Part shown: in pieces, positions 3,022 through 39,361 of the stretch | Numbering within the stretch: position 1 is the first letter of the stretch | Layout: each line of letters starts with the position of its first letter | NCBI GenBank assembly: GCA_030698885.1 | Contig: JAUYLN010000038.1 | Location: forward strand, 1-64,000 | Direction of reading: 5' to 3' | Source of the DNA: a bacterium | Lineage (GTDB): Bacteria > Patescibacteriota > Minisyncoccia > 2-02-FULL-40-12 > IGHO2-01-FULL-4-A | DNA: 64,000 nucleotides | Program-made: the position numbers and the translations under genes | Notes under the pieces: model-generated | What the model was told of the DNA's origin: nothing | What the model saw: only the letters and a program-made list of their open reading frames with translations | Databases searched by the model: none

Positions 3022-3114
3022 TTAAACCAAAAACGCGGCGATTAATAGGGCGACAATATTCGCCACCTTAATCATCGGATTAATCGCAGGACCTGCCGTA
3101 TCTTTATATGGATC
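3022..3114 (-). pseudogene. Duplicated 3' end of hppA (30 codons plus stop)
   Basis: Reading the minus strand gives [20 protein letters not shown] followed by [10 protein letters not shown] and a stop, identical in amino acids to the last 30 residues of the intact hppA next to it. Many third positions differ (for example GCA/GCT and CTA/TTG), so this is not a recent copy. About 110 bp of hairpin-rich sequence separates it from the intact gene's stop. It has no start codon of its own. Confidence 0.85.
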
Positions 3115-3226
3115 GTCGCTTCGCTCCCAATAGGACTTCCGTCCTCTTGTGTCACTTCGTTCCAGTCACCTCATCGGGAAACCGTCATCGTTTCCCGACC
3201 CCTTCGTTTAGATCCCTACAAAGATA
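3115..3226. other. Hairpin-rich spacer between the two hppA tails
   Basis: About 110 bp with no ORF. It contains CGGGAAAC-CGTCATC-GTTTCCCG, AGGAC-TTCC-GTCCT, and repeated CGAAG-type words on the minus strand (GGAACGAAGTGAC, GAGCGAAGCGAC). It looks like inserted palindromic DNA. Confidence 0.5.
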
Positions 3227-5233
3227 CTAAACCAAGAAAGCTGCGATTAACAACGCGACAATATTCGCAACCTTAATCATCGGGTTTATAGCGGGACCAG
3301 CCGTATCTTTATATGGGTCGCCTACAGTGTCACCGGTGACAGCCGCCTTGTGGGCATCTGAACCTTTTCCGCCATAGTTGCCTTCTTCAATAAATTTCTT
3401 GGCATTATCCCATGCCGCACCGCCCGAAGTCATAGAAATAGCAACGAACAAACCTGTAACAATTACACCCATAAGCAAACCTCCTAAAGCTTCCGCACCG
3501 AGCAAAAATCCTACTGCCACCGGAATTACTATCGGAATCAATGCCGGCAAAATCATTTCACGAAGAGCCGCCCTGGTTACAATATCAACCGCTTTGCCAT
3601 AATCAGGCTTGGCGGTTCTTTCCATAATGCCCGGAATTTCTCTGAACTGCCTTCTCACTTCATCAACTATAGCTCCCCCTGCTTTACCCACCGCCTGCAT
3701 AGCGAGCGAACCGAATAGATAAGGCATCAAACCACCTATAAATAATCCGAGAATAACATTTACATCAGACAAACTAAAAACAACTTCCCTGCCTAAATCG
3801 GAGAGCTCCTGTGTATATGCCGAAAATAAAACCAGAGCGGCAAGACCTGCCGAAGCGATGGCATAACCCTTAGTTACTGCCTTAGTTGTGTTTCCAACCG
3901 CATCCAAGGCATCCGTTGAGGTACGGACATTATCCGGCAGTCCGGCCATCTCTGCAATTCCCCCCGCATTATCAGTAATAGGGCCGAAAGCATCAATGGC
4001 GACAATAATACCCGCGAGAGAAAGCATACTCATCGTCGCCAGCGCCACGCCGTAAAGTCCGGCCAAAGCATAAGCGACAAAAACTCCGGCACTGATTATT
4101 ATAACCGGCAAGGCCGTTGATTCCATGGACATGGCCAAACCGGTGATAATATTAGTACCGTGTCCGGTTGTAGATGATTGGGCAATTTTTTTGACCGGCC
4201 TGAAATTTTTAGAAGTGTAGTACTCTGTTATTACAACCATAAAAGCAGTGACCAAAATACCTATCAGCAAAGAATACATAACGTTGTCACCGGTGATTCC
4301 TGTTTCAGAAATATTTTTAAAAGTCGTGTTCTCCCATATCCAATCAACACTGAAAAATATAAGTCCTATAAAAACCGCTCCGGCTATAGCCAGTCCTTTA
4401 TACAAAGCCCCCATAATGCTCTTTTTTAATTTTACAAAAACCGAACCTATGATTGATGCTCCGATGGCTAAGGCTCCGATCAATAACGGAAACTGAATAA
4501 CCGGCTCATTGTTTCCAAAAAGCAAACTGCCGAGCAACATCACCGATACTGCTGAAACAACATAAGTTTCAAAAAGGTCGGCAGCCATACCCGCATCATC
4601 GCCCACGTTATCACCAACAAGGTCTGCGATTACCGCAGGATTTCGCGGATCATCTTCGGGAATACCGGCTTCTACTTTACCAACAAGGTCTGCGCCGACA
4701 TCAGCGCCCTTAGTAAATATTCCTCCGCCTAAACGGGCAAAAACAGAAATAAGAGAACCACCAAAACTCAAACCGATCAGAACCTTAAGGTCACTGGTTA
4801 GCCAAAACATCAAAGTAATAGAAAAAAGGGCCAAACCCACAACCAAAAATCCGGTTACGGCTCCGCCCTTAAAAGCGATATCAAATGCGGGGGCGATTCC
4901 TGTTTTGGCAGCTTCGGCCACCCGTGAATTTCCACGAACAGCAATAGACATGCCGATATAACCGGCAACTGCAGATGCCACGGCACCGACAATAAATCCG
5001 GCCGAAACCTTCCAACCGAGCATAAAGTATAAAATAATAGCTACAATAATTCCTACTACGGCCACTACGCTATTCTGCCTCTTTAAATATGCGGAAGCGC
5101 CCTCTTGTATGGCCTTTGAAATATCACGCATCTTATCATCACCGGCCGGTTTCTTCAGAACGTCCCAAATCAAAAAAGCGCCGTATCCAAGAGCCAATAG
5201 CGAAGCCGAAAACGCAAACAATAGAATATTCAT
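3227..5233 (-). CDS. hppA: K+-independent H+-translocating membrane pyrophosphatase
   Basis: An integral membrane pump of about 668 aa that couples PPi hydrolysis to proton export. The substrate loops are clear: [20 protein letters not shown] followed by the [15 protein letters not shown] loop, a second acidic loop [18 protein letters not shown], and the C-terminal [10 protein letters not shown] and [14 protein letters not shown] motifs. The segment [17 protein letters not shown] carries Lys where K+-dependent enzymes have Ala, which marks the K+-independent, proton-pumping class. The start is taken at ATG 5231-5233 (MNILLFAF); an in-frame GTG eight codons upstream is possible. No Shine-Dalgarno is seen. 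The last 30 codons are duplicated downstream at 3022-3114. Confidence 0.95.
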
Positions 5234-5307
5234 ACTGTCAAAATAACATACTAGCACTTTAACATAAGGCCTGGATTTAAATATAATTTATTCAAATCAA
5301 AAGCCCA

Positions 5308-5349
5308 ATGTTTAAATGTTAAAATGTTTAAATGTTTAAATGGATTTGA
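5308..5349. repeat. Word-repeat tract (AATGTTTAA words)
   Basis: Four imperfect tandem copies of a TTTAAATG-like word. They run up to the stop codon of rmuC (5350). The outer parts are complementary (AATCAAA near 5295 and TTTGATT near 5345). The same word family occurs at 12304-12335 and 19346-19429. Confidence 0.7.
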
Positions 5350-9592: not shown

Positions 9593-9596
9593 AGGA

Positions 9597-9703: not shown

Positions 9704-9979
9704 ATGGCTAAACTTACACAAAAATTATCTGATGAGGTTTTTGCTGGCAGAGTATTAGAATGCATAAAGAAAAAATTCAAATCTGTATTAGATATACCCT
9801 TAGATTTTATTACCCTTTCTAATACATTAGTTGAGGAGAATCTTGATTTTGAACACACTGAGCTAGAAGACGCATTAAATTTTCTAGCTTCAAAAAATCA
9901 GAACAAACTTGCAGTAAGCCGTATTAGATTACCGATTACCGACATAACTAAAATATCCTTCAGACTAACAGTTCTATAA
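9704..9979 (+). CDS. Hypothetical protein (91 aa) in a repeat-bounded unit
   Basis: Not recognised. The ATG at 9704 has AAGGA five nt upstream and a near-consensus promoter. The product starts MAKLTQKLSDEVFAGRVLEC and is mostly helical with an acidic middle (VEENLDFEHTELEDALNFL) and a basic, beta-like end. It could be a small winged-helix-like protein, but no motif proves it. A strong terminator follows. The whole unit lies between inverted word-repeat arms and runs opposite to murF and ftsI. Confidence 0.65.
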   Translation: MAKLTQKLSDEVFAGRVLECIKKKFKSVLDIPLDFITLSNTLVEENLDFEHTELEDALNFLASKNQNKLAVSRIRLPITDITKISFRLTVL

Positions 9980-12303: not shown

Positions 12304-12335
12304 TTTGTTAGAATGTTTATATGTTTATATGCTTA
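12304..12335. repeat. Word-repeat tract (ATGTTTATATG words)
   Basis: Imperfect tandem copies of ATGTTTATATGCTTAAATG-like words. They fill the gap between the ftsL start and the rsmH stop. Same family as 5308-5349 and 19346-19429. Confidence 0.65.
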
Positions 12336-13238
12336 AATGAGTTCTGCTACTCTTAATTTTGCGCTTCTGGAACGCGGATTATTTATTATTTCTTCACGGC
12401 CCGGCACAATAGGTTTTTTGGTAAGTATTTCCCATTTTCCGTCTTTTTTACCGTCTCTCAGGAAATTTTTAACTATCCTGTCTTCAAGTGAGTGAAAAGA
12501 TATGACTGCCAGCCTGCCTCCTTTTTTTAATACTTGTTCTGACTGCTTAAGTGCTGACTTTAAATTTTCAAGTTCATTATTTGTCTCAACCCTTAACGCC
12601 TGAAATATTTTGGTAGCAAAGTGTATTCTACGATGCTGATACCAACCGGGAACCGTATTTCTTATTATTTCTACCAGTTCAAATGTGGTTTTTATCGTTT
12701 TGTTTTTTCTGGACCTTATTATCGCTTCGGCTATCGGTCCGGCAAATCTCTCTTCCCCGTATTCTTTGAATATTCTGGTTAAATCTTCCGCGCTATATTC
12801 ATTTACAATCCCCTCCGCCGTCTTGTTTGTGTTTTGTAAATTGTGATTTGGGATTTCTAAATATGAACTAATGTTCATATTTAGAGGTTCATCTTTCTGA
12901 AAACTGAAACCTTTCCCGCTTCCCTCAAAATGCCAGCTTGATATACCAAGATCAAACAATATTCCATTAGCATTATTGAAATCATTTTCTTGAGCTATTT
13001 TTTCTAAATTTATGAAATTATCGTTTATTAAAATTAAATTATCTTTTTTACTCTCTACTGCTTTTTTATAAAGCTCTTCGGTTGCCTCAATACCTAGAAT
13101 CCTTCCACCCGTTCCAACTTTCCCGGCCATTGCCAGACTATGTCCGCCAAATCCAAACGTCGCATCAATTATCTTGTCACCGGGCTTAGGGTCTAAATAT
13201 TCAAGAACTTCATTTAATAAAACGGGGGTGTGCAGCAA
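12333..13238 (-). CDS. rsmH: 16S rRNA (cytosine-1402-N4)-methyltransferase RsmH
   Basis: A SAM-dependent methyltransferase of 301 aa. Conserved blocks are HTPVLLNEVLEYL, IIDATFGFGGHS (SAM motif I), ILFDLGISSWHFE, KGFSFQKDEPLNMN, GEERFAGPIAEAI, FQALRVETN and AVISFHSLEDRIVK. The start is TTG at 13236-13238: an in-frame UGA lies two codons upstream, and the family begins at this point; AGGA is 9 nt before it. After PLNMN there are about 10 extra residues compared with E. coli and B. subtilis RsmH (SSYLEIPNHNLQNTN). They are encoded by a palindrome plus an ACAAATCACAA-type repeat, so they look like an in-frame insertion. Confidence 0.95.
   Translation of the reverse strand: MLHTPVLLNEVLEYLDPKPGDKIIDATFGFGGHSLAMAGKVGTGGRILGIEATEELYKKAVESKKDNLILINDNFINLEKIAQENDFNNANGILFDLGISSWHFEGSGKGFSFQKDEPLNMNISSYLEIPNHNLQNTNKTAEGIVNEYSAEDLTRIFKEYGEERFAGPIAEAIIRSRKNKTIKTTFELVEIIRNTVPGWYQHRRIHFATKIFQALRVETNNELENLKSALKQSEQVLKKGGRLAVISFHSLEDRIVKNFLRDGKKDGKWEILTKKPIVPGREEIINNPRSRSAKLRVAELI
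12821..12884. repeat. Repeat inserted in frame within rsmH
   Basis: On the minus strand a 12-bp palindrome (CTAAATATGAAC-ATTA-GTTCATATTTAG, 12857-12884) is followed by AAATCACAATTTACAAAACA, which resembles the repeat inside the O-antigen ligase gene at 20344-20404. Confidence 0.6.
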
Positions 13239-13781: not shown

Positions 13782-13789
13782 AGATAAAC

Positions 13790-13915
13790 TCTAAATCCTA
13801 AGTCCTAAATCCTAAATAAATCCCAATGATCCAAATATCAAATTCAAAACGTTTGAAATTTAAAACTTGGAATTTTGATATTGTTTAGGGTTTAGAGCTT
13901 AGAACTTAGGATTTG
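13790..13915. repeat. 125-bp imperfect palindrome (CTAAATCCTAA words), copy 1
   Basis: Left arm of CTAAATCCTAAGTCCTAAAT-type words and right arm of the complementary words, meeting around AAAACGTTTG. The segment 13872-13897 matches the reverse complement of 16891-16916 at 25 of 26 positions, so this is a dispersed family. Confidence 0.85.
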
Positions 13916-16491: not shown

Positions 16492-16875
16492 TTAAATCGT
16501 TTTATCGTATTTTGAACTCTGTTCAGTTTCCCATGGAAACACTACCCAGCCATCCTTCAGTCTGCAATGGAAATCCGGCATAAATACACTTTGCTTATCA
16601 AGATAAATTGTTACGACACTAACTTTTTTCTTGCCGAGCATTTTCTTAAGCGTCTTGCCTGTATCTGCTATGTCATCAACTATCAAAGTCTTGTCTGTTA
16701 TTTTTTCCTTATCCCAGACAAGGGGCAACCCTAAACCATGCGATAACGATACCGCTAACGGCAATCCACCTCTTGGCAAGCCATAAATGTTTTTAAATTT
16801 TCGCCCCCGCGCCCATCTGGCAATCTTTTTAACATCCTTATCAAATTCCGACCAATCGTAATAATCTCGTTTCAA
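16492..16875 (-). CDS. Purine-type phosphoribosyltransferase (Gpt-like)
   Basis: A 127-aa type I phosphoribosyltransferase. The PRPP-binding loop is TLIVDDIADTGKTL (residues 63-76), the PPi loop is YGLPRGGLPLAV (31-42), and the C-terminal GWVVFPWE is the hallmark of the xanthine/hypoxanthine-guanine group. Likely role: purine base salvage. The start is TTG at 16873-16875, directly beside a palindromic repeat. A diverged copy of its last 20 codons lies 500 bp downstream. Confidence 0.85.
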   Translation of the reverse strand: MKRDYYDWSEFDKDVKKIARWARGRKFKNIYGLPRGGLPLAVSLSHGLGLPLVWDKEKITDKTLIVDDIADTGKTLKKMLGKKKVSVVTIYLDKQSVFMPDFHCRLKDGWVVFPWETEQSSKYDKTI

Positions 16876-16994
16876 GCCCTAAACCTAAAACTCTAAATCC
16901 TAAACAATATCAAAATCTTAATGACCGAAATTCAAAAATTAGAATTTGGGATTTGAGATTTGTTTAGAAATTAGGAATTAGAAATTAGAAATTT
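16876..16994. repeat. 120-bp imperfect palindrome (CTAAATCCTAA words), copy 2
   Basis: Arms of CCTAAACCTAAAACTCTAAA-type words and the complementary TTAGGAATTAGAAATTAGAA words. It fills the gap from the PRTase start to the stop of the transketolase N-terminal gene. It shares a 26-bp segment (25 identical) with the palindrome upstream of mraZ. Confidence 0.85.
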
Positions 16995-17884: not shown

Positions 17885-17922
17885 GGTTGCCGTAAAGCTA
17901 TAGAGCCATAAGCTATAAAGCC
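17885..17922. repeat. Left inverted arm of the S23-gene unit
   Basis: CCGTAAAGCTATAGAGCC-type words. CCATAAGCTATAAAG on this arm matches the reverse complement of the right arm (CCATAAAGCTGTAAAG). The stop codon of the four-helix-bundle gene lies inside it. Confidence 0.65.
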
Positions 17923-18260
17923 TTATTTAAAGATTCCAGCATAGCTCCAATTTCTCTGGCCATATTGTTTAGAGTTATGCCGATTTCAAGGTCTATATAT
18001 TTTAGTTCGTAACTTAACAAAAAATAATATTTCAATTCCTCTAAGGAAGTTTCCGACATATTATGAAAATGTTTTCTATCTTTGACTGATTTTCTTTTGG
18101 TACCCTCCACTATGTTTGATGCTACAGAAATGGCAGCTCTTCTCATTTGGGGTACTAGGGCGAATTTTTCTTGCGATGGGAAGTTTATTGTTATTTTATA
18201 TACTTCTAAAACTAGCCTATGCGCTTTTTGCCAAACTTTTAATTTTTTAAATTTTTCCAA
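17913..18260 (-). CDS. S23-type four-helix bundle protein
   Basis: A 115-aa protein of the family first found in intervening sequences of bacterial 23S rRNA genes (S23, four helix bundle protein). Hallmarks are KLKVWQKAHRLVLEVYKIT, QMRRAAISVASNIVEGTKR and the AETSLEEL-like segment MSETSLEELKYYFLLSYEL. The molecular role is not established. TTG start at 18258-18260, with AAAGGAGGG about 12 nt upstream. The gene fills the space between inverted word-repeat arms at 17885-17922 and 18279-18317, between the transketolase and gapdh genes. Confidence 0.9.
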   Translation of the reverse strand: MEKFKKLKVWQKAHRLVLEVYKITINFPSQEKFALVPQMRRAAISVASNIVEGTKRKSVKDRKHFHNMSETSLEELKYYFLLSYELKYIDLEIGITLNNMAREIGAMLESLNKAL

Positions 18261-18278
18261 ATTTTATCTGTACCCTCC

Positions 18279-18317
18279 TTTACAGCTTTATGGCCTACGG
18301 CCTTAAGGCTATAGAAT
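18279..18317. repeat. Right inverted arm of the S23-gene unit
   Basis: ACAGCTTTATGGCCTACGGC-type words, complementary in part to 17885-17922. The stop codon of gapdh (18309-18311) lies in this arm. Confidence 0.65.
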
Positions 18318-19313
18318 TTGTGCCACCGCAACCACATGCTTCAACAGCATCGCCGCATAACCTGCTTCATTATCATACCACGCCATCACTTTTACCAAAT
18401 CTCCGTCCACTACCCTTGTCATGGATAGGTCTATGATAGAACCATAAGGCTGTCCCAAAATATCTGATGACACCAACGCCTCTTCAGTAACAGCCAGTAT
18501 CCCCTGCCACTCTTCTTTGCCTGCCGCTTCACGAAAAATATTATTAATCTCTTCAACGGAAGTCGGTTTCTCTGAAATAAAAGTAAAATCAATAATTGAA
18601 CCCGATGGCACGGGAACTCTTATTGCGATACCATCAAACTTATCTTTAAGTCCCGGAACAGCTCTTGTTGCCGCCAATGCCGCTCCGGTAGAAGATGGGA
18701 CAATATTTATCGCCGCCGCTCTGCCCCGGCGAAAATCTTTGGCAACCGGGCTGTCAACAATACTTTGAGTAGCCGTATAGCCATGAACAGTGCTTAAAAG
18801 GGCCTTTTTTACTCCGGGATTGGCCGACATAACCGCCATTACCGGCGTTGTAGCATTGGTTGTACAGGAAGCATTGGAGGTTATTTTTTCAAGCTTCAGA
18901 TTTTCCATTCCGACATTTGGCGTTGCTGTAGGTGTTATCTCATCTTTTGCGGGAGCGCTAATTATAACCCTCTTTGCTCCGGCATCTAAATGCGGAGTAG
19001 CTTTGTCCCGGGATTCAAAAACTCCGGTAGACTCAATAACTATATCAACACCTAAATCTTTCCACGGCAATTTGCCCGGTTCTTTTTCCTGAACTATGTG
19101 TATATCCTTTCCATCAACCAATAGTTTACCGTCTTTTACTTCAACACTCTTATCATATCTGCCATAAACAGAATCGTACTTTAAAAGATACGCCAGATTG
19201 TCTAAGTCTCCGAGGTCATTAATCGCCACAATATCTATACCATCAAAACCGAAAGCCTTGCGAAAAAACATCCGCCCTATCCTGCCAAAACCATTGATTG
19301 CAATTTTAGTCAT
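18309..19313 (-). CDS. gap: Glyceraldehyde-3-phosphate dehydrogenase
   Basis: A 334-aa class I GAPDH. NAD-binding motif INGFGRIGRMFFRKAF at the N-terminus, catalytic Cys in SNASCTTNATTPV (about residue 149), phosphate-binding STVHGYTATQSIVD, and WYDNEAGYAAMLLKHV near the end. It performs the oxidative step of glycolysis and fits with the transketolase genes next to it. ATG start, no Shine-Dalgarno visible. Word-repeat tracts of different families bound it on both sides. Confidence 0.97.
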   Translation of the reverse strand: MTKIAINGFGRIGRMFFRKAFGFDGIDIVAINDLGDLDNLAYLLKYDSVYGRYDKSVEVKDGKLLVDGKDIHIVQEKEPGKLPWKDLGVDIVIESTGVFESRDKATPHLDAGAKRVIISAPAKDEITPTATPNVGMENLKLEKITSNASCTTNATTPVMAVMSANPGVKKALLSTVHGYTATQSIVDSPVAKDFRRGRAAAINIVPSSTGAALAATRAVPGLKDKFDGIAIRVPVPSGSIIDFTFISEKPTSVEEINNIFREAAGKEEWQGILAVTEEALVSSDILGQPYGSIIDLSMTRVVDGDLVKVMAWYDNEAGYAAMLLKHVVAVAQIL

Positions 19314-19345: not shown

Positions 19346-19429
19346 CTAAAATGCTTAAGTGTTTAAATGCTCTAATGTTTATATGATTAAATGCTTATAT
19401 GCTTAAGTGTTTAAATGTTTTAATGCTTA
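19346..19429. repeat. Word-repeat tract (ATGCTTAAGTGTTTAA words)
   Basis: About eight imperfect copies of ATG-C/T-TTA-type words between the gapdh start and the O-antigen ligase stop. The ligase stop codon is part of the last word. Confidence 0.75.
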
Positions 19430-29368: not shown

Positions 29369-30505
29369 ATGCGCATATGCTATTTCAATCTCACCGAGAA
29401 AATCCATACCCGAGATGTCATATATCTTAACGGGCTCAAAAAGCTAGGGGTAGACCCCGTTAGAAGTCGCGCTCATGCTGAAGGCATGAGTCCAGAGGAC
29501 CGCGGCGCGGCTACTTCTAACGGGGTAGAAATAATAGATTGCCGGGATTGGACACCGGGAATAAAAAAGTTTTGGAATTTATATAAAAAACATCGTGCCC
29601 TAAAGAATAATTATGATTTATTATTCATAGGTTTTTCGGGTCATATTCTGGTTCCTTTTGCCAAACTAATATCAGATAAAAAAATTGTTTTTGATGCCTT
29701 GGGCTCTCTATATGACGGAATAATAATGTCCCGCAAAAAATACGGATTTCTAGGCTGGAGAATATTATACGTATGGCTGGTGGATTGGCTGGCATTTAAC
29801 CTGGCCGACATATCGCTTGTTGATACTAACACCAGAAAAAAATTCATTTCCGACAAGTTTTTTATACCCGAACGAAAACTTATCCGATTATGGACCGGTG
29901 TAGATGACACAGTTTTTATATATAATCCTGACATAAAAAAACTACCCCCATTCACAGTTCTATTCCGGGGCGCATTAATGCCGGAATCGGGAATTGAATA
30001 TATGCTAGAGGCCGCAAAAATTTTAGAAAAAGAGCCTGTGCAATTTAGAATAATGGGTTCCGGATATTTAGCGCCGTTAGTTGAAAAAATGATAAAAGAC
30101 TTAGATTTAAAAAATGTAGAATGGCTCACTCAACGTTTTTCCTGGGAAGAGATGACCGGCAAGATGCAAGAATGCCATTTAAGTCTCGGCCAGCTATCTG
30201 ACCACAAACGGCAAGAGTTCCATGTTCCGTTTAAAACTATGGAAAGCATGGCCCTGCATATTCCTTATATGATAACCAGCAACTCATACGGCATCATGGA
30301 ATTCCTCAAAGATAACGAGACCTGCCTTACGGTAAAACCGGCTAGCGCTGATGATTTAGCAAAAAAAATACTTTGGGCAAAAAATAATCCCGATCAGCTG
30401 AATCAGGTTGCGGAAAATGCCCATGCTCTATTTAAAACAAACTTTACCACCGATGTTTTGGCTCGTGAGCTAAATAAAATCTTATCCTCTCTTCTTCATT
30501 CTTAA
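29369..30505 (+). CDS. GT-B glycosyltransferase (family 4-like) with in-frame repeat insert
   Basis: 378 aa. The C-terminal half has the GT-B donor site pattern: LPPFTVLFRGALMPESGIEY, FRIMGSGYLAPLVEKMI and VPFKTMESMALHIPYMITSN. Residues about 28-52 (DPVRSRAHAEGMSPEDRGAA, then TSNGV) are encoded by a 75-bp palindromic insert flanked by the 8-bp direct repeat GGGGTAGA. Removing it joins LKKLGV to EIIDCRDW, the normal family reading. The 3' end overlaps the convergent gene at 30482-31426 by 24 bp. Confidence 0.85.
   Translation: MRICYFNLTEKIHTRDVIYLNGLKKLGVDPVRSRAHAEGMSPEDRGAATSNGVEIIDCRDWTPGIKKFWNLYKKHRALKNNYDLLFIGFSGHILVPFAKLISDKKIVFDALGSLYDGIIMSRKKYGFLGWRILYVWLVDWLAFNLADISLVDTNTRKKFISDKFFIPERKLIRLWTGVDDTVFIYNPDIKKLPPFTVLFRGALMPESGIEYMLEAAKILEKEPVQFRIMGSGYLAPLVEKMIKDLDLKNVEWLTQRFSWEEMTGKMQECHLSLGQLSDHKRQEFHVPFKTMESMALHIPYMITSNSYGIMEFLKDNETCLTVKPASADDLAKKILWAKNNPDQLNQVAENAHALFKTNFTTDVLARELNKILSSLLHS
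29447..29529. mobile_element. Palindromic element inserted in frame in a glycosyltransferase gene
   Basis: Perfect 14-bp arms ACCCCGTTAGAAGT (29454-29467) and complement (29513-29526), an inner CGCGC/GCGCG pairing, and two small hairpins (TCATGC/GCATGA and GTCC/GGAC) give a cloverleaf-like fold. GGGGTAGA occurs at both ends (29447-29454, 29522-29529), so the net insertion is 75 bp, or 25 codons. Confidence 0.8.
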
Positions 30506-31426
30506 GAAATAAGCAACTGTTCTTTTTAGGCCTTCGTCCAGACTGACTTCAGGCTGCCAGCCAAGCTCTTTCTTGGCTTTTTTATTTGAAACGCAAAATC
30601 TTAATATTTCTCCCGGCCTTGAATTATAATATGCCGGCTTGGCATCAGGTTTTTTTAATAACTTAGCTATCTTGCTATGTAATTCGTTTAGGGTAGTTTC
30701 TTTAGCTGAACCCAGATTAATTACCGGAACATTTCCTTTAGTCTCTAAACCAAGGGCAACGATATTGGCTTTTATATTATCTTCAACATATATATAATCA
30801 CGAGTTATATTGCCGTCACCAAACATTTCTACAGCCAGCCCAGAATCTATTTTTCTGATATAGTCAGCCATTGCTCCCCTAACCTGTCGCGGACCATAAG
30901 TTGTTGCATAACGCAATATTACGCAAGATATCCCATAGGTCTTATTGAAATATCGTAAATAATTCTCTGCTGTTAATTTTGATACCACATATGGCGATAC
31001 CGGCTGCGACTCATGCTCCTCTGTCACCGGCAGCATCCTGGACGGATAATTTCCATAAACAAAGGCCGATGATGCCATTATTATTTTTTTAACTCCATAC
31101 TTAACAGCATTATTGAAAATATTCAAAGAACCGGTGATGCTCCCGGCATCAAACATAGGGTCTTCAACTGACTTAGGTACATTAGTGTTAAATGCAAGAT
31201 GATATATTATTTCCGGTTTTTCTTTTTTAAATACATTATCTATCTCCGGACTATTCATATCTAAGTTATAAAATTTTGCCCTGGGATTAATATTTTCTTT
31301 TAGGCCCGTTGAGAGATTATCAACAATAAAAACCCTAGCCCCCTGTTTAACTAGAGCATCCGCTAAATGACTGCCCAAAAACCCCGCCCCGCCGGTAACA
31401 AGAATTTTTTTATTTTTTATTTTCAT
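30482..31426 (-). CDS. NAD-dependent epimerase/dehydratase (UDP-glucose 4-epimerase-like)
   Basis: 314 aa, extended SDR with intact motifs: LVTGGAGFLGSHLADAL, VDNLSTG, ASSAFVYGN, catalytic Tyr/Lys in SPYVVSKLTAE, and YIYVEDNIKAN. The nucleotide-sugar substrate cannot be told from sequence; the UDP-hexose 4-epimerase branch fits best. A GATTCTAATATAC-type repeat tract lies between its start and the next gene upstream. Confidence 0.85.
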   Translation of the reverse strand: MKIKNKKILVTGGAGFLGSHLADALVKQGARVFIVDNLSTGLKENINPRAKFYNLDMNSPEIDNVFKKEKPEIIYHLAFNTNVPKSVEDPMFDAGSITGSLNIFNNAVKYGVKKIIMASSAFVYGNYPSRMLPVTEEHESQPVSPYVVSKLTAENYLRYFNKTYGISCVILRYATTYGPRQVRGAMADYIRKIDSGLAVEMFGDGNITRDYIYVEDNIKANIVALGLETKGNVPVINLGSAKETTLNELHSKIAKLLKKPDAKPAYYNSRPGEILRFCVSNKKAKKELGWQPEVSLDEGLKRTVAYFLRMKKRG

Positions 31427-31433
31427 TCTGGTG

Positions 31434-31480
31434 CGATTCTAATATACAAATGCATACTAATTATACTAATGAACTTGTAG
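31434..31480. repeat. Single copy of the TAATATACNAATGCATACTAAT repeat end
   Basis: GCGATTCTAATATACAAATG followed by CATACTAATTATACTAATG closely matches the arm at 36106-36177 (in reverse complement). No clear second arm is present. Confidence 0.7.
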
Positions 31481-35673: not shown

Positions 35674-35713
35674 CGATGCTAATATACGAATTTTACTAAT
35701 GATACAAATACTA
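35674..35713. repeat. Left terminal arm of the GxxExxY unit
   Basis: CGATGCTAATATACGAATTT followed by TACTAATGATACAAATACTAG. It matches the left half of 39280-39321 and, inverted, the arm at 36106-36177. Confidence 0.8.
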
Positions 35714-36115
35714 GGCGAACTTGTTTCGAGCATCAGTATCTATCCTTACTATCCTTATTGGTTTTAAATATCTATTTCTAAAATTTATCAGTAACGCTAA
35801 GCGAACATCAGCTGCTTGAATATATTTTTGTGCCTGATAATAATCTTCTTTTAATATTATCGGCTTAGCTTTTAACTCTACGATGATTTTATTATCTATG
35901 AAAAAATCCACCACATTACCGGAGCCCTCTATTGGAAACTCTCTTATATAGGCGATACCTGCTTCTTTAAACCTCTGTTCTAATAAATTTCCGTATTGCC
36001 TTTCTCTCGCATATCTTCCTAGCTCATTGTGAACATCAAAACAGATACCGGTCAGCAGATAAGATAACTCCGGATAAATCAACTTGTCATTTTTATTCGT
36101 ATTATTAGTATGCAT
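35711..36115 (-). CDS. GxxExxY protein
   Basis: About 134 aa, of the family named GxxExxY (a PD-(D/E)xK-like fold of unknown role, common in CPR and Bacteroidetes). Key segments are [20 protein letters not shown], the [16 protein letters not shown] variant of the GxxExxY motif, [15 protein letters not shown] (nuclease-like D...ExK arrangement) and [17 protein letters not shown]. The start codon, either 36113-36115 or 36158-36160, lies inside the right repeat arm, and the stop lies at the edge of the left arm. The ORF and its flanking inverted arms therefore appear as one unit. Confidence 0.88.
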
Positions 36116-36177
36116 TAGTATATTGGTATCGCACTTATTATTAGTATAATTAGTATGCATTAGTATATTGGTATCGC
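36101..36177. repeat. Right terminal arm of the GxxExxY unit, tandemly repeated
   Basis: TAGTATGCATTAGTATATTG followed by GTATCGC occurs twice (36106-36132 and 36151-36177). The reverse complement GCGATACCAATATACTAATG pairs with the left arm. The arm ends 1 bp before the stop of the gene at 36179. Confidence 0.85.
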
Positions 36178-39279: not shown

Positions 39280-39361
39280 CGATACTAATATACAAATTTT
39301 ACTAATGATACTAATGAATTTAATTCGTATTATTAGTATGCATTCGTATATAGGCATCGAT
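39280..39361. mobile_element. Palindromic repeat: empty version of the GxxExxY unit
   Basis: The left half (39280-39321) matches the left arm at 35674-35713, and the right half (39322-39360) matches the right arm at 36101-36132, but no ORF lies between. The halves are themselves imperfect inverted repeats (CGATACTAATATACAAAT and CGATGCCTATATACGAAT). Confidence 0.8.

Follow-up and report, generated by a model that had tools for sequence, protein, structure and literature searches.

A single GxxExxY gene is enclosed between inverted arms of ~38 bp at positions 35674–36177 of the window (the whole 64,000-nucleotide stretch of DNA that was analyzed), forming a compact unit. We think it probable that this unit represents a minimal mobile element, ~460–500 bp long and autonomous, consisting of two inverted arms and one small PD-(D/E)XK nuclease gene whose product recognizes its own arms. 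Mobility itself is well supported: the element forms a discrete module whose ends accompany the gene, sister species differ in whether they have the element, and gene-less copies are dispersed in numbers that track the full element. We infer that the nuclease itself mobilizes its arms, a step backed by the coupling of copy numbers. The earlier note on this DNA had proposed a mobile single-gene cassette, and the occurrence of armed elements at unrelated sites, the gene-less arm pairs and the covariation of arms and protein support that proposal.

Architecture of the unit and its nuclease

The left arm CGATGCTAATATACGAATTTTACTAATGATACAAATA aligns with the right arm CGATACCAATATACTAATGCATACTAATAATACGAATA when the latter is reverse-complemented, and an alignment of ~38 bp with one gap is obtained with either of the two right-arm copies (Table 1). 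The arm-arm score of 34–35 was reached by 27–29 of 100,000 random window pairs, a sample that includes copies of the family itself, whereas no shuffle out of 20,000 attained it. Together, the alignment and these controls confirm the coordinates and the matching inverted ends proposed in the earlier note. Its description of the right arm as a tandem repeat that supplies both possible start codons also holds; the duplicated unit, however, is 43 nt long at a spacing of 45, rather than 26–27 bp. The first 16–25 residues of the protein are arm-encoded. Both start and stop had been placed inside the arms, and this is correct for the starts, while the stop codon (TAG, 35711–35713) abuts the left arm. 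As a guess, the doubled right arm could be the outcome of a one-ended event.

Table 1. Positions of the window element, its arms and the related ends in the window
Feature	Position	Strand	Remarks
Left terminal arm (L type)	35674..35711	+	CGATGCTAATATACGAATTTTACTAATGATACAAATACTA; four degenerate AC(T/G/A)AAT units
GxxExxY ORF, PD-(D/E)XK nuclease fold	35711..36160	-	149 aa; 134 aa from alternative start 36115
Inner right terminal arm (R type)	36090..36132	-	Alternative ATG 36115 inside
Outer right terminal arm	36135..36177	-	Tandem duplicate of inner copy, 93% identical; ATG 36160 inside
Gene-less miniature copy, 80 bp	39280..39359	+	L-type and R-type ends joined
Solo R-type end	31434..31474	+	Precedes by ~7 nt the ATG of an epimerase gene, 30482-31426(-)

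The host is represented by a 957 kb MAG of the Patescibacteria (Paceibacteria-like), in a class that also includes Azambacteria, Sungbacteria and other Parcubacteria, judging by the organism names of relatives. The element lies in a CDP-sugar operon with the order cytidylyltransferase, CDP-glucose 4,6-dehydratase, C-methyltransferase, element, RmlC-like and DegT, in agreement with the earlier claim that it interrupts the operon between the C-methyltransferase and RmlC-like genes. It is separated by 1–2 nt from the methyltransferase stop codon and by 5 nt from the rmlC-like start codon. No target-site duplication is visible at this copy, and no nucleotide-exact empty site was found for it. The only ORF in the element is PDDEXK_3, and the element contains no DDE transposase, no HUH (Y1) transposase and no reverse transcriptase. 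The region gave no Rfam match above noise, and an RNA family or intron was rejected on this ground.

The window protein belongs to the GxxExxY family, with matches to PF13366 (E=1.2e-18, 68.1 bits, cut-off 22) and TIGR04256 (E=9e-17, 61.5 bits, cut-off 35). Its PD-(D/E)XK motif is formed by D85, E95 and K97, and E53 is the glutamate of GxxExxY. Among 79 sequences D85 and K97 are invariant and E95 and E53 are conserved in >90%, so that the catalytic core is intact. Together with the AlphaFold2 model (pLDDT 88.6, falling to 54–60 in the arm-encoded N terminus) and the fold comparison, this agrees with the nuclease-like fold put forward in the earlier note. The closest solved folds, all of them weak matches, are lambda-exonuclease-like, Cas4-like, a Holliday-junction resolvase and the homing nuclease I-Bth0305I. 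The sequence profile gave weak matches to T7 endonuclease I in four entries (E=0.019–0.6), which are not significant by sequence; T7 endonuclease I shares the D-x9-E-x-K catalytic spacing with the GxxExxY protein. These matches suggest, but do not show, that the GxxExxY nuclease may prefer branched DNA, a predicted preference that would fit arms able to extrude as cruciforms. In the open-access literature we found no established function for GxxExxY proteins and no report of their mobility.

Arms, gene-less copies and sister genomes

Across 109 distinct GxxExxY loci, the inverted-arm score has a median of 37, compared with 18 for arms mispaired between loci, and 49 of the 109 lie above the 99th percentile of mispaired arms; this control is conservative because the ACGAAT core is common to many elements. 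The units vary from element to element (ACTAAT, ACGAAT, ACGCAGA, ACGGAT, GCTAAT, ATGCAAAT and others), but within one element both arms are built of one kind of unit. For a second set, 80 loci drawn from named genomes, the more alike the proteins, the more alike the arms tend to be (rho 0.34), but there is no such correlation for the outer flanks (rho 0.04); these values come from 1770 pairs that are neither mutually nor phylogenetically independent. The relatives occupy unrelated sites, such as dnaB-recR (L003) and nusG-rplK (L005), assigned by Pfam on the flanks, with NusG from a KOW match and its position, and no conserved neighbors were found. The earlier note had suggested a comparison of this kind; its outcome is that the arms accompany the gene whatever the site. 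Of the two observations that it had named as contrary evidence, the gene at other sites without arms and arms at this site only, neither was made: relatives at unrelated sites carry arms, and gene-less arm pairs occur elsewhere in this and other genomes. Compared with same-side arms of the nearest relative, the two arms within an element show no excess of identity (84 versus 80, p=0.81); the arms are therefore not visibly copied from each other, and an explanation by concerted copying between arms was dropped.

A gene-less copy is present in the window itself. This miniature copy at 39280–39359 matches the left end of the window element at 92% identity over 36 nt and its right end at 84% over 50 nt; it precedes the glucose-1-phosphate cytidylyltransferase gene, whose probable GTG start is ~7 nt away, and forms a hairpin of almost full length (z=-2.5 as single-stranded DNA). 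A search with a 28-position pattern, allowing up to three mismatches, detected the end motif in 67 out of 384 genomes from the class, most of the surveyed genomes being MAGs, with a maximum of 33 ends per genome (G381 and G052, the latter an Azambacteria record); the reversed pattern gave ~2 matches in total. Among 20 places that were read, many are discrete two-ended gene-less copies of ~75–95 bp in unrelated flanks, with the termini TGCGATRC...GYATCGCA, and in one genome (G258) three such copies are nearly identical. They fold as hairpins nearly end to end (z -2.2 to -6.7 as single-stranded DNA), and no target-site duplication is visible at the 20 gene-less copies read.

Sister genomes differ by presence and absence. 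In lepA, two genomes carry an in-frame element (G132, G083) where same-genus genomes have a plain short loop (G066, G110, G166; two genera in all). Furthermore, the element L094 of G230 is absent from the orthologous interval of same-genus G253, and the gene-less copy L019 of G007 is absent between the same two genes in G006. The site of L072 in G253 was rejected as a clean empty site, since its sister G230 holds a different AT-rich repeat insertion there, which shows only a shared insertion-prone site.

The number of gene-less copies follows the resident gene. Besides L094 itself, G230 has L094-type ends at 27 places, whereas its sister species G253, from which L094 is absent, has them at 2 (binomial p ~2e-6; counted as BLAST matches to one query). 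Over the range G095–G264, taken as all searched in both scans, at least two window-type ends are present in 14 of 58 genomes with GxxExxY versus 4 of 112 without (p=8e-5), and 9 of the 11 genomes with at least 10 ends hold the gene, compared with ~30% of the class (70/238). GxxExxY was not detected in the end-rich genomes G090, G032, G099 and G024, whose ends may be relics or may have been moved by something else. A separate observation in G230 is a second repeat (query 457–588), present in dozens of copies, that is nested in the L094 element (L314, G230 versus G253), so that repeat families nest in each other.

Placement between operon genes and inside lepA and recG

Among 66 intergenic elements whose arms are clear, the upstream neighbor is co-directional in 55 of 63 cases and the downstream neighbor in 56 of 60; both are co-directional 48 times and both opposite once. 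The arms mostly end ~0–10 nt from the stop codon and the next start codon. The simplest reading of this bias is selection, in which elements persist only at harmless spots in compact operons and only in the orientation expressed by read-through, although a mechanistic insertion bias could also lie behind it.

A smaller group, 17 of 109 loci, lies inside a long open frame, mostly in lepA (9) and recG (6). The lepA inserts (L013, L015, L045, L047, L051, L057, L143) are in frame between PVRM and LNLIDTPGH, and the recG inserts (L041, L044, L046, L048, L068, L124) are in frame at two places in RecG. The recG inserts other than L124 form one clade with the lepA inserts (support 97/95), and this clade of 14 occurs at only two sites, in lepA and recG, in unrelated families; specific occupancy of homologous sites is confined to the lepA/recG clade and is not seen in the window clade. 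A group I or II intron or an intein was rejected for the in-frame inserts, as no such domains are present and the frame is open throughout. Carriage by phages or plasmids was likewise rejected, as phage records and viral contigs gave no matches and plasmids three weak ones.

At both junctions in lepA, an inverted copy of the host codons comes after them, e.g., GTTCGCATG-ATATAT-CATGCGAAC. These foldbacks are matched in cis with the synonymous codons of each genome (0 of 100,000 permutations) and are not found at the empty lepA sites (L125–L128), and they may be a trace of how insertion takes place. They were rejected as a signature of insertion in general, since a profile over 142 junctions has no peak, which restricts them to the lepA/recG side of the tree. 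The lepA loop also takes unrelated in-frame repeat insertions (L143 in G124, L137 in G153), one of which consists of 8-bp units without GxxExxY and has the same flank foldbacks; the loop is an insertion-tolerant hot spot.

Mechanism, alternatives and related systems

The arms could instead be miniature elements moved by another enzyme, either an IS200/IS605-type or RAYT HUH transposase or host recombination, with GxxExxY only as cargo. A Y1 transposase family is present in 11 of 15 end-bearing genomes, several end-rich genomes are without GxxExxY as described above, and the ends form hairpins like those of REP/REPINs. We nevertheless consider this unlikely: Y1 transposases are absent from G000, G124 and the two genomes with 33 ends, the arms of GxxExxY loci diverge jointly with the protein, and gene-less copy number tracks the resident full element. 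Less likely again is a homing-type selfish gene, whose nuclease would cut vacant alleles at preferred sites and be spread by repair from the filled allele, leaving the arms as repair by-products. Homing alone predicts neither the many unrelated sites of the window clade nor its two-ended gene-less copies, and the flank foldbacks are not general, even though the restriction of one clade to lepA and recG, the cis-matched inverted codons around the lepA inserts and the weak fold similarity to I-Bth0305I all speak for it.

Iteron-like units, arms that adjoin start codons and co-directional placement would also suit an ordinary operon gene with regulatory iterons, in which the arms are immobile operators or mRNA hairpins. 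This reading is largely refuted by the presence/absence differences between sister species and by the dispersal of two-ended gene-less copies; with the in-frame placement in unrelated essential genes and the lack of conserved neighbors also against it, we regard it as highly improbable. We give still less credence to an RNA-level element like the S23-encoding intervening sequences (IVS) of 23S rRNA, i.e., an RNase III-processed stem spread by RNA retro-insertion. It would share the strong co-directional bias and, as in the Coxiella IVS, a single ORF within inverted arms (PMC4990558), but the in-gene copies are stop-free through arms and gene, which RNA excision would not need, and neither an Rfam match in the region nor a reverse transcriptase in the element was found.

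We therefore return to the preferred reading, an autonomous element moved by its own nuclease, for which the following steps can be envisaged. Each arm comprises about four degenerate units of 7–10 bp with the core ACTAAT or ACGAAT, and the nuclease would bind these repeated units of its own arms, probably as an extruded hairpin or cruciform. Cleavage at the arm ends would follow, perhaps while the arms are extruded, and arm-gene-arm DNA, either released or copied, would be joined elsewhere without target duplication. A gene-less arm pair could presumably be mobilized in trans by the resident nuclease. Viable insertions would be those that spare genes, either in tight co-directional operon gaps, where read-through expresses the nuclease, or in frame in tolerant protein loops.

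By analogy, the GxxExxY element would work most like RAYT/REPIN, from which it differs in enzyme and ends. In RAYT/REPIN systems the gene-less two-ended copies are ~80–100 bp long, mainly extragenic and hairpin-forming, with no obvious target duplication. RAYT (TnpA_REP) likewise places one nuclease gene between inverted short repeats (PMC3116915, PMC8266576, PMC2817692). However, its enzyme is HUH/Y1 whereas that of the GxxExxY element is PD-(D/E)XK, the REP tag GTAG/CGTC is absent from the latter, whose ends read CGATRCYAATATAC in four-unit iteron arrays starting CGATRC, and full GxxExxY elements, unlike RAYT/REPIN, also occur inside coding frames. By both its enzyme (no HUH/Y1) and its end tag, the element falls outside that group. 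Rickettsia palindromic elements are short, palindromic and located in frame within protein-coding genes; GxxExxY elements, in contrast, encode a nuclease, and their main insertion class lies between operon genes. Compared with PD-(D/E)XK homing endonucleases and T7 endonuclease I, the GxxExxY element has no intron or intein and has arms of its own. Pairs of IS and MITEs, which depend on DDE enzymes, resemble it in having terminal inverted repeats together with non-autonomous copies that are internally deleted (PMC10969869, a review of prokaryotic MITEs that also names the Rickettsia elements). The inverted repeats and their derivatives are indeed found here, but there is no DDE transposase, no target-site duplication was seen, and the sole gene is a nuclease. 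There is a real chance that the GxxExxY element, which is of a known sort as a small mobile element with non-autonomous copies, represents a new class.

The IVS of 23S rRNA with an S23 four-helix-bundle ORF likewise consist of a small ORF in inverted terminal repeats, and their mobility has been suspected for decades (PMC4990558). They differ in being rRNA-bound, in being removed by RNase III and in their protein; with its place in a sugar operon, a different ORF and no Rfam match, the window element is not one of them. S23-family genes of the class, however, carry iteron arms like those of GxxExxY outside rRNA. In the window, an S23-type four-helix-bundle gene (17913–18260, TIGR02436) appears to be enclosed by inverted arms of 7–8 bp units at 17887–18320, and the genome contains six TIGR02436 matches. 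Over 24 S23-family loci (L204–L233), the median arm score is 34.5 versus 18 for mispaired arms, with 10 above the 99th percentile, and these units look like a parallel class of one-gene element. Quite possibly, although we propose it tentatively, GxxExxY elements form a class of transposable elements whose sole enzyme is a PD-(D/E)XK nuclease acting on iteron-type arms, with S23 genes as a parallel class.

Further repeats are present in the window. Inverted-arm units of AAGTAGTAAGTATTAAGC-type repeats surround a short ORF (6442–6490/6744–6789) and a 91-aa ORF (9704–9979, with arms at 9596–9635/10017–10057). Gene-free intergenic arrays of 7–8 bp units (AATGTTTA type, AAATCCT type) at 5303–5346, 12308–12343, 19346–19429, 13786–13915 and 16873–16990 are probably gene-less members of similar families. 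A 93-nt direct repeat (86%; 3023–3115 and 3228–3320), which spans the 3′ end of an H+-pyrophosphatase-like gene (3227–5257) and the DNA just beyond, is a partial gene duplication or remnant.

On the preferred reading, a widespread gene family without an established function gains a testable role, that of the enzyme behind a minimal mobile element. If this is correct, one more enzyme type would join the short list of nucleases that mobilize DNA alone, and the elements, widespread in Patescibacteria, would rank with the smallest mobile elements that are autonomous. The parallel with S23 units touches the old question of the nature of the rRNA intervening sequences. Gene-less copies seeded in trans would account for one class of the repeats found between genes in tiny genomes that are regarded as streamlined, and entry into the coding frames of lepA and recG would provide a natural route for domain insertion into essential proteins.
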